In this document: positions 19,597-24,329 of the stretch, piece by piece
How positions within the stretch are numbered: the stretch's first letter is position 1
How the letters are laid out: every line of letters starts with the position of its first letter
Assembly: GCF_014131695.1 (NCBI RefSeq)
Contig: NZ_CP036346.1
Span: 2,046,001 to 2,110,000, forward strand
Source: Thomasclavelia ramosa DSM 1402
GTDB lineage: Bacteria > Bacillota_I > Bacilli_A > Erysipelotrichales > Coprobacillaceae
Reading direction: 5' to 3'
Length of the DNA stretch: 64,000 nt
Made by a program: the position numbers and the translations under genes
Notes under the pieces: model-generated
Seen by the model: only the letters and a program-made list of their open reading frames with translations
Told to the model about the DNA's origin: nothing
Database searches by the model: none

Positions 19597-19630
19597 AGTA
19601 TAAACGAGAAGTCGATGAAAGCGTTTACTT
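19597..19630 (-). promoter_or_regulatory. GH3 promoter overlapped by a CcpA cre site
   Basis: On the minus strand TATACT (19602-19597) is a good -10 box. The expected -35 position (about 19620-19626) falls inside ATGAAAGCGTTTACTT (19615-19630, plus-strand reading), which closely fits the catabolite-responsive element consensus for CcpA. Occupancy would block polymerase, giving glucose repression. Only sequence similarity supports this. Confidence 0.65.
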
Positions 19631-21576: not shown

Positions 21577-22917
21577 CTATAATTTATTAACAATATTTTT
21601 AAATACTCGACCACGTTCTTCATATCCAGAAAATTCATCAAAACTGCTGGTTGATGGCGAAAGTAAAATAATATCGCCAGCTTTTGCTTTCTCGATTGCC
21701 AGCAAAGTCGCTGCTTCTAAATTCTCAACAGAACTACTGTTTGCAACATGCATATCATTTTTAAATCGCTCTCCAGCAGCACCAAATGTCACCAGATGAC
21801 TGATTTTATTACCATAAGTAGCCATTTCGGTTAAATCTAACCCTTTATCAAAACCACCCATCAATAAAATTACTGGTTGTTCAAAAGCTTTTAAAGCAAT
21901 GATCGTAGCGTCAGTATTAGTTGCTTTTGAATCATTATAGATTTTAACTCCATTAATTTCTCTAACAAACTCAATTCGATGTTCAACACCAATAAATGAG
22001 GCAATTTCTCGATTGATGACTGTTACTGGTACATCACATTTTTTAGCAATGCAGATAGCTGTCATAATATTTTGAATGTTATGGCGTCCTACAACTTTAA
22101 TATCCGCTAAGTTAATAATTAATTCATCTCGATAATAGATTGCCTGTTCTTTGATCATACAGTCAGCTTCATGTATCAATGACATTGTGACTTGATTACA
22201 TGGAACTGGATATTTTTCCAAATACTCCATTACTGTTTTATCATCAAGATTAACCACAAAATAATCATCAAGATCAGTATTCTTATAAATATTTGTTTTA
22301 GAAGCATAATACTCATCCAATGAGGCCATATAATCTAAATGATCGGGTGTTAAATTGATGATCGTTGAGACATAAGGCTTAAATCGTTCAATATCTAATA
22401 ACTGAAAGTTACTCATTTCAATTACTACATAATGATTTTCTTCATTAAGAAGATCATTATCTAAAACAACATCACATAGTGGTGTTCCCACATTACCTGC
22501 TAAATGAACATGTTGATATTGTCCCTTTAATATTTTATCAATTAAAGTAACTGTTGTTGTTTTACCATTAGTACCAGTTACTCCAATATAATGTTGTTTT
22601 TTAGCAACTTGAAAAGCTAATTCAATTTCCGTATATACAGGAATCTTTCTTTCCTTAAGTCTTAAAATAAATGGCTTATGATAATTAATTCCAGGGTTCT
22701 TAATTACAAAGTCAAAATCACATTCAAATAATTCAGTTGGGTGTGACCCTGTTACCATTTCAATTCCCATATCAAGATATTGTTGATATTCTGGAATATC
22801 CTTAATTTCTTTAGCTTCATTAACCGTAATCGTTGCATTTAATTTATGAAGCAATCTAATCGCAGCCTTACCACTTTTAGCAAGTCCAATCACTAATACC
22901 TTTTTTCCAGTAAACAT
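21577..22917 (-). CDS. murD: UDP-N-acetylmuramoylalanine--D-glutamate ligase MurD
   Basis: Adds D-glutamate to UDP-MurNAc-L-Ala in the cytoplasm. The 446-residue protein has the N-terminal Rossmann-like UDP domain (VLVIGLAKSGKAAIRLL), the ATP-binding P-loop GVTGTNGKTTTV (about 113-124), the Mur ligase motifs LNLTPDHLDYM-like INLTPDHLDYM, YNDSKATNTDAT (about 317) and the C-terminal GGFDKG. The length is normal. The gap to mraY upstream is three bases, so they form an operon. It is separated from ftsW/murG by about 6 kb of unrelated genes. Confidence 0.97.
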   Translation of the reverse strand: MFTGKKVLVIGLAKSGKAAIRLLHKLNATITVNEAKEIKDIPEYQQYLDMGIEMVTGSHPTELFECDFDFVIKNPGINYHKPFILRLKERKIPVYTEIELAFQVAKKQHYIGVTGTNGKTTTVTLIDKILKGQYQHVHLAGNVGTPLCDVVLDNDLLNEENHYVVIEMSNFQLLDIERFKPYVSTIINLTPDHLDYMASLDEYYASKTNIYKNTDLDDYFVVNLDDKTVMEYLEKYPVPCNQVTMSLIHEADCMIKEQAIYYRDELIINLADIKVVGRHNIQNIMTAICIAKKCDVPVTVINREIASFIGVEHRIEFVREINGVKIYNDSKATNTDATIIALKAFEQPVILLMGGFDKGLDLTEMATYGNKISHLVTFGAAGERFKNDMHVANSSSVENLEAATLLAIEKAKAGDIILLSPSTSSFDEFSGYEERGRVFKNIVNKL

Positions 22918-22920
22918 ATT

Positions 22921-23898
22921 CTATAGCACCCCAATTACAATTGATAAGATTCCACAGATGAAACCAATGAACCAGAATGAAATAGTTACTTGTTGTTCAC
23001 TCCAGCCCAACATTTCAAAGTGATGATGGATCGGTGCCATCTTAAATACTCGTTTTCCTCGAGTTTTAAATGAGACTACTTGAATAATAACCGATAAAGT
23101 TTCCATTAAAAAGACTCCACCAACTAAAATAAGTAATAACTCTTGTTTTGTAAGTATCGCTAAAATAGCCAAGAAACCACCTAGACCAAGCGAACCTACA
23201 TCACCCATAAATATCTTAGCAGGATGATAATTAAACATCATGAAACCAAGTAAAGCCCCTACCATTGCAGTTGCATAACTTGCAAGAGTATAATCTTTTG
23301 TCATGATAGAAAAGATTATAAATGGTGCAATCGCAACCATTGAAAGACCAGTTGCTAATCCATCTAAACCATCAGATAAATTTACACCGTTACTTTCCCC
23401 TGCAAACATTACTAAGATTAATGCTGGATATAAATAACCCATATCAATATTAATATCTAATAATGGAATTGTAATTACTGATGTAAAATCAGGAATAAAG
23501 TTCATTGCAAAGAAATAACAAATAATTGCTAACGCGATCTGAGCTAATAATTTAGCTAGTGGCGGTAATCCCTTATTACTATGTTTAACAATGATCAAAG
23601 CATCATCCACAAATCCAATTGCACTATATCCAACTAAAACAATTGTTGCTAAAATCAGCTCCGGATCAAGTAAATTATTAAAATTAACAATAAAAGCACC
23701 AAGAATTGCGGCAATCACAAAAACGATTCCACCCATTGTTGGTGTACCATTTTTTGACTTATGTGATTCAAGTCCTTCTTCACGTTCAACTTGACCAAAT
23801 TTCATCTTATGTAGGAATGGAATTACTTTAGGCATTGCTAGAACAACAAGAATAAAGCCAATTCCAAAAGCAATTATTAGTTTTAAGAAGTTTTCCAT
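22921..23898 (-). CDS. mraY: Phospho-MurNAc-pentapeptide transferase MraY
   Basis: Makes lipid I by moving phospho-MurNAc-pentapeptide onto undecaprenyl phosphate. The 325-residue polytopic protein has around ten helices and the family motifs GTPTMGGIVFV (about 51-61), FVDDALI (about 96-102), NLSDGLDGLATG (about 173-184), FMGDVGSLGLGG (about 230-241) and MAPIHHHFE (about 286-294). It is the first gene of the pair with murD. The region 23899-23996 upstream carries its probable promoter and the terminator of the HPr-like gene. No mraZ, mraW, ftsL or PBP gene is next to it. Confidence 0.97.
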   Translation of the reverse strand: MENFLKLIIAFGIGFILVVLAMPKVIPFLHKMKFGQVEREEGLESHKSKNGTPTMGGIVFVIAAILGAFIVNFNNLLDPELILATIVLVGYSAIGFVDDALIIVKHSNKGLPPLAKLLAQIALAIICYFFAMNFIPDFTSVITIPLLDINIDMGYLYPALILVMFAGESNGVNLSDGLDGLATGLSMVAIAPFIIFSIMTKDYTLASYATAMVGALLGFMMFNYHPAKIFMGDVGSLGLGGFLAILAILTKQELLLILVGGVFLMETLSVIIQVVSFKTRGKRVFKMAPIHHHFEMLGWSEQQVTISFWFIGFICGILSIVIGVL

Positions 23899-23961: not shown

Positions 23962-23981
23962 ATAAAAGGGACAAGAGTCCC
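23962..23981 (-). terminator. Intrinsic terminator after the HPr-like gene
   Basis: GGGAC (23968-23972) and GTCCC (23977-23981) with a four-base loop; TTTTATTTT follows on the minus strand. Confidence 0.75.
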
Positions 23982-23996
23982 AATTATTAAATTGTT

Positions 23997-24266
23997 TTAC
24001 CCACTAATTCCTAGATCCTTCATTAATTCAAGGGCCCGTTTAATAACTGCGTCCTCATCTTCTCCATCAGCAATAATTTCAATTTTTGCTTTTGTTGGAA
24101 TACCCAGAGATAGAACCCCCATCAATGATTTCATGTTGACAGTTTTAGATGCGTAGACTAACTTAATATCACTGTTGAACATCTTCATAGTATCAACTAG
24201 TTCGGTTGCTGGAGTCGCATAAAGACCAACTGGATCAGTTACGGTAACGTCGATTCTTTTTACCAT
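23997..24266 (-). CDS. HPr-fold protein lacking the PTS histidine (Crh-like)
   Basis: The 89-residue protein has the full HPr fold length and alignment. The active-site loop, normally G-L-H-A-R-P-A, reads GLYATPA at residues 14-20: the phospho-accepting His is Tyr16 and the assisting Arg is Thr18. The regulatory helix is kept, with the HprK target serine at Ser47 in NMKSLMGVLSLGI. Such a protein could not pass phosphate along the PTS but could be serine-phosphorylated and act with CcpA, as B. subtilis Crh does (Gln at the His site). RBS AAGGAGG. It is a single-gene unit with its own terminator. The Crh-like role is inference; a genuine ptsH must be elsewhere if the PTS works. Confidence 0.85.
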   Translation of the reverse strand: MVKRIDVTVTDPVGLYATPATELVDTMKMFNSDIKLVYASKTVNMKSLMGVLSLGIPTKAKIEIIADGEDEDAVIKRALELMKDLGISG

Positions 24267-24329
24267 ATTGCTTACCTCCTTAATTACTTATATTATAACA
24301 TTGTTACCTAGTTATTGCATCTAATATAA

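Follow-up and report, generated by a model that had tools for sequence, protein, structure and literature searches.

A tyrosine-carrying HPr paralogue with a conserved HprK site, probably restricted to regulation, in Thomasclavelia and related genera

The window, the whole stretch of 64,000 nucleotides analysed here, contains at 23997..24266 (minus strand) an open reading frame for an HPr paralogue of 89 amino acids, MVKRIDVTVTDPVGLYATPATELVDTMKMFNSDIKLVYASKTVNMKSLMGVLSLGIPTKAKIEIIADGEDEDAVIKRALELMKDLGISG. We consider it likely that this protein is inactive in the PTS and acts as a regulator controlled by HprK via Ser46; among its possible targets, CcpA is the leading candidate. As judged from the sequence comparisons, an HPr duplicate probably lost PTS phosphotransfer and kept the HprK-controlled Ser46 switch in an ancestor of the family, which we take to be the Coprobacillaceae in GTDB terms, independently of Bacillus Crh. 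The reading follows from a pattern also seen for Bacillus Crh, namely a lost PTS acceptor, a conserved HprK site and the presence of HprK. Some Firmicutes make Crh, which lacks His15 and is active in CCR and not in the PTS (PMC3526391; PMC9631020). In Bacillus it is phosphorylated at Ser46 by HprK and serves as corepressor with CcpA (PMC9631020).

The paralogue and the canonical PTS proteins of the genome

The active-site loop reads GLYATPA (24207..24227, minus strand) where canonical HPr has GLHARPA. Tyr is encoded by TAT (24221-24219) and Thr by ACT (24215-24213); ORF residues 16 and 18 correspond to HPr positions 15 and 17. The HprK target context NMKSLMGV (24114..24137, minus strand) carries Ser46, which is ORF residue 47, as codon TCA (24128-24126), as originally predicted with only the strand left unstated. 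With 81.4 bits on the PTS-HPr profile PF00381 (cut-off 23) and 73.7 bits on TIGR01003 (cut-off 47.9) the protein was assigned to the HPr family; on the NCBIfam equivalog model PRK13780 it reached 85.6 bits, below the cut-off of 110. The codons and the PF00381 match confirm the original prediction of an HPr paralogue with Tyr for His15 and Thr for Arg17, so that both the phosphorylatable histidine and the arginine of a functional ptsH product are missing. An AlphaFold model (mean pLDDT 84) had its closest PDB structure in the P-Ser-HPr of the CcpA complex 2fep (TM 0.91). A chance mutation or sequencing error was rejected, because two HPrs were found in 9/9 genomes of the genus, the second always with GLYATPA, and the Tyr paralogue occurs family-wide.

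A Pfam search of the 3.25-Mb single-contig genome yielded exactly two HPrs, both standalone. The other one is the canonical ptsH product (C1:2241623-2241856; GLHARPA ... NLKSIMGVMSLGVP), encoded about 170 kb from the Tyr paralogue and 50% identical to it. Furthermore, the genome encodes EI as a single ORF (767 bits), one HprK (361 bits) comprising both domains and a CcpA-type LacI regulator, whose nearest solved relatives are the CcpA proteins of several Firmicutes. Since all four components are present, the sequence gives no reason for an impaired PTS, and the earlier conditional suggestion of such a defect, made for the case that the Tyr form were the only HPr, does not apply.

The best CcpA of the genome scored 261.6 bits on TIGR01481, far below the equivalog cut-off of 442. 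It keeps the equivalents of Tyr295, Asp296 and Arg303 (YDMGALAVRLLTK), which we take to be CcpA-specific. At the position of Asp69, presumably an HPr contact like Asp99, Tyr295 and Arg303, Gln was found in 30/30 family CcpAs read (FPQ versus IPD in Bacillus; L110:1495-2499; L167-L196), and the equivalents of the other three contacts are kept in nearly all of the family sequences. The low TIGR01481 score and the Gln at position 69 point to a non-standard HPr-CcpA interface. A co-adaptation of CcpA to the Tyr paralogue gains no specific support from this exchange, because genera without the paralogue share it (L189, L195, g12).

Relation to Crh and distribution in the family

With Crh of Bacillus subtilis and Parageobacillus the Tyr paralogue has in common the HPr fold without His15, Ser46 in the HprK context KSxMG, and the coexistence with canonical HPr, HprK and CcpA. 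Crh, however, has Gln15 and keeps Arg17 (GLQARPA, exact PDB match), whereas the Tyr paralogues combine Tyr15 with Thr, Ser, Ala, Lys or Gly at position 17. The Tyr paralogue is also not closer to Crh than to HPr: its best matches in a PDB sequence search were HPrs with 60-67 bits, compared to 44-46 bits for Crh, and on the NCBIfam model PRK13782, which we take to be the Crh-type model, it stayed at 58.2 bits (cut-off 123). Its gene lies beside mraY-murD and not beside yvcK-type genes, the presumed neighbours of B. subtilis crh. An orthologue of Bacillus Crh was ruled out by these scores (58.2 versus 123; 67 versus 45 bits), the loss of Arg17 and the gene context, and for the same reasons the protein looks like a variant of Crh type that arose independently within the HPr family. 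The earlier label of a Crh-like HPr paralogue is upheld in this sense by the invariant Ser46 context, the loss of His15 and Arg17, the presence of HprK and a canonical HPr elsewhere in the genome.

Canonical Firmicutes HPr (ptsH) shares family, fold and the regulatory Ser46 site with the Tyr paralogue, but has His15 and Arg17. Having neither, the paralogue should not be a normal PTS carrier. The HPr domains of NPr, FPr and DhaM are likewise HPr-fold paralogues with specialised roles. These domains retain the phosphorylatable His, and the NPr and DhaM models scored much lower on the Tyr paralogue (28.5 and 39.1 bits, respectively).

For the distribution, 43 genomes from 20 genera of the family were sampled (Thomasclavelia, Faecalibacillus and relatives; one genome per species, some incomplete), 42 of which contain HprK. 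Among 36 paralogues read, Ser46 was found in all, Tyr15 in 34 and Arg17 in a single one. Position 17 was occupied by Thr (23), Ser (4), Lys (3), Ala (2), Gly (2), Arg (1) and Asn (1). The two paralogues that retain His15 lack Arg17 and Pro18. Weighted by group, Lys45-Ser46 was conserved to 100% and Tyr15 to 89%, while Thr at position 17 reached only 50%; the Ser46 motif was fully conserved across about 19 groups. Degenerate versions of the paralogue were observed in L066 and L082. It is absent from the genera g8 and g12 (five genomes), although CcpA and HprK are present in some of them, and is therefore dispensable there.

Using a degenerate DNA pattern (G-L-Y, 29 codons, K-S-x-M-G), matches were obtained in 14/17 family genomes and in 0/35 genomes of the sister family. 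About 340 other genomes of the class gave one apparent chance match with an in-frame stop inside, and an off-frame control, in which the pattern had one free base too many (88, not 87), likewise gave one chance match in 392 genomes. Second HPr copies in the sampled sister-family genomes retain His15 and Arg17. Within these samples the Tyr version thus appears confined to the family. The original prediction had regarded Tyr as a general lineage feature beside a PTS-active HPr as evidence against itself. Such a feature, next to an HPr that looks PTS-competent, is what was found; it removes the PTS impairment and leaves the Crh-like reading standing.

Pairwise comparisons in the genus gave medians of 0.11 for dN, 0.87 for dS and 0.12 for their ratio, and by this measure the Tyr paralogue is under strong purifying selection. 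In a tree of 82 HPr sequences, 2 label changes separated the Tyr group from the canonical HPrs, compared to 27 with shuffled labels, and 13 HPrs of the sister family formed one starred clade. As the short sequences leave most forks of the tree unresolved, the tree is compatible with a single origin of the Tyr group but does not prove it.

Several other HPr-related observations were made in the sampled genomes. The 95%-complete family genome G038 has neither the Tyr paralogue nor a CcpA match at E 1e-60, a single case that is consistent with a functional link. Mirror-image HPr paralogues (L062, L079, L080, L081, L089, L091) have His15 and Arg17 intact and Lys in place of Ser46 (KKLL); they could be PTS-active yet HprK-blind. 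In L098:2161-3492 (G025) an HPr domain with GIHARPA and without Ser46 is fused to a D-2-hydroxyacid dehydrogenase (PF00389 and PF02826), an unusual combination. ORFs of about 430-460 amino acids with an HPr domain were found in several genera of the family and the sister family.

Gene context and transcription

Three neighbours of the paralogue gene lie on the minus strand: upstream a putative rRNA methylase gene (PF06962; 24330..24854), downstream mraY (22921..23898) and murD (21577..22917). A ribosome-binding site AAGGAGG was read from the sequence at 24275..24281 (minus strand), and an extended -10-like element TGTTATAAT, tentatively a promoter of its own, was read by eye at 24292..24300 (minus strand); the latter is missing from the list of a hexamer scan. 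Downstream, an intrinsic-terminator-like hairpin GGGACTCTTGTCCC followed by TTTTATTTTG was located at 23968..23981 (minus strand; 1 found, 0.4 expected). The hairpin on the 3' side and the two elements on the 5' side make a transcript of its own plausible for the Tyr paralogue. The predicted monocistronic organisation is plausible to this extent; against it, the methyltransferase gene on the same strand ends just 63 nt upstream.

The order methylase, Tyr paralogue, mraY, murD is shared by Thomasclavelia, Faecalibacillus-like genomes and G033, and in G034 the paralogue precedes mraY. Altogether, the gene adjoins mraY-murD in four genera (g1, g9, g13, g14), mostly with the methylase on the opposite side. 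In other genera its neighbours are class III ribonucleotide reductase genes (identified by eye), a gene for a protein of about 120 amino acids or one for a HAD-like protein. As the neighbourhoods differ among genera, there is no constant partner gene, and an operon partner explaining the function was rejected. The protein of about 120 amino acids is encoded beside the Tyr-HPr gene at L063:2553-2954, L075:2529-2894, L084:3337-3699 and L088:3357-3728; two of these proteins were compared with Pfam and gave no match, and by eye it looks rhodanese-like.

Two GH1 genes and one GH3 gene, predicted nearby, are indeed present. Of the proposed cre control of the GH3 gene, one cre-like site with 1 mismatch was found (AAGTAAACGCTTTCA, 19616-19630), about 60 nt upstream of the gene and just upstream of a possible -10. 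Matches with 1 mismatch were, however, not in excess of chance across the window (10 found versus 6.1 +/- 2.8 expected).

Proposed function and alternative readings

We propose that EI would be unable to phosphorylate the Tyr paralogue, that HprK would phosphorylate its Ser46 at high levels of ATP and glycolytic intermediates, and that the Ser46-P form might then bind CcpA and modulate cre-controlled genes. As no His phosphorylation would be possible, the flux of PTS sugars would not interfere with the Ser-P signal. Arg17 is among the main contacts of HPr to EI (PMC8509676). For Listeria, PMC3526391 cites a loss of more than 96% of PTS activity upon substitution of His15. Binding of CcpA is the weakest step of the proposal, as two residues of the docking face are changed and the paralogue may dock differently to CcpA or to another target. 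Arg17 of HPr also contacts CcpA. Unphosphorylated His15 is reported to contribute directly to HPr-CcpA binding (PMC3526391), and the loss of both residues could weaken the docking.

The same change of two residues in the partner face, next to an invariant Ser46 loop, would also fit a Ser46-P regulator of a target other than CcpA, which might be an enzyme or a factor of the cell wall. It would equally fit a decoy or competing substrate that buffers HprK and thereby tunes the Ser-phosphorylation of canonical HPr. The position beside mraY-murD in g1, g9, g13 and g14, mostly with the methylase on the other side, agrees with such a role. B. subtilis Crh acts on methylglyoxal synthase, beyond CcpA. 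Control of MgsA is discussed in PMC9631020. The changing neighbourhood, with no constant partner gene, and the retention of the presumably CcpA-specific residues in the family CcpA argue against this reading, and we regard it as unlikely. It is also rather doubtful that Tyr15 is a working residue, either phosphorylated by a tyrosine kinase in a carbon switch with two inputs (Tyr and Ser) or belonging to a docking face re-wired for the diverged CcpA or a cell-wall partner; the idea derives from the fixation of Tyr across genera while position 17 drifts.

Very improbable is a phosphocarrier function via phosphorylation of Tyr15 or another route. Tyr is fixed (34/36) and not drifting, so that use of its hydroxyl could be meant, but the chemistry of EI is a histidine-to-histidine transfer, Arg17 and in some members also Pro18 are lost, and the genome has a complete canonical PTS chain. 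Hardly credible, finally, is a decaying duplicate without function: the active-site residue is gone and the gene is missing or degenerate (L066, L082) in some genera, but the reading is largely refuted by the selection pattern, with the low dN/dS, ORFs intact in all members of the genus, the complete conservation of the Ser46 motif and conserved synteny.

In the literature searched, mainly open-access, no description of an HPr paralogue with Tyr15 was found. The regulation-only reading suggests that HPr diverged more than once into one copy for transport and one for regulation only, as Crh in Bacillus and separately in a family of common gut bacteria. With a second origin, in which another residue replaces His15 and the docking face differs, it would become testable which positions of HPr are needed by CcpA and how catabolite control is kept apart from PTS flux in these gut bacteria.
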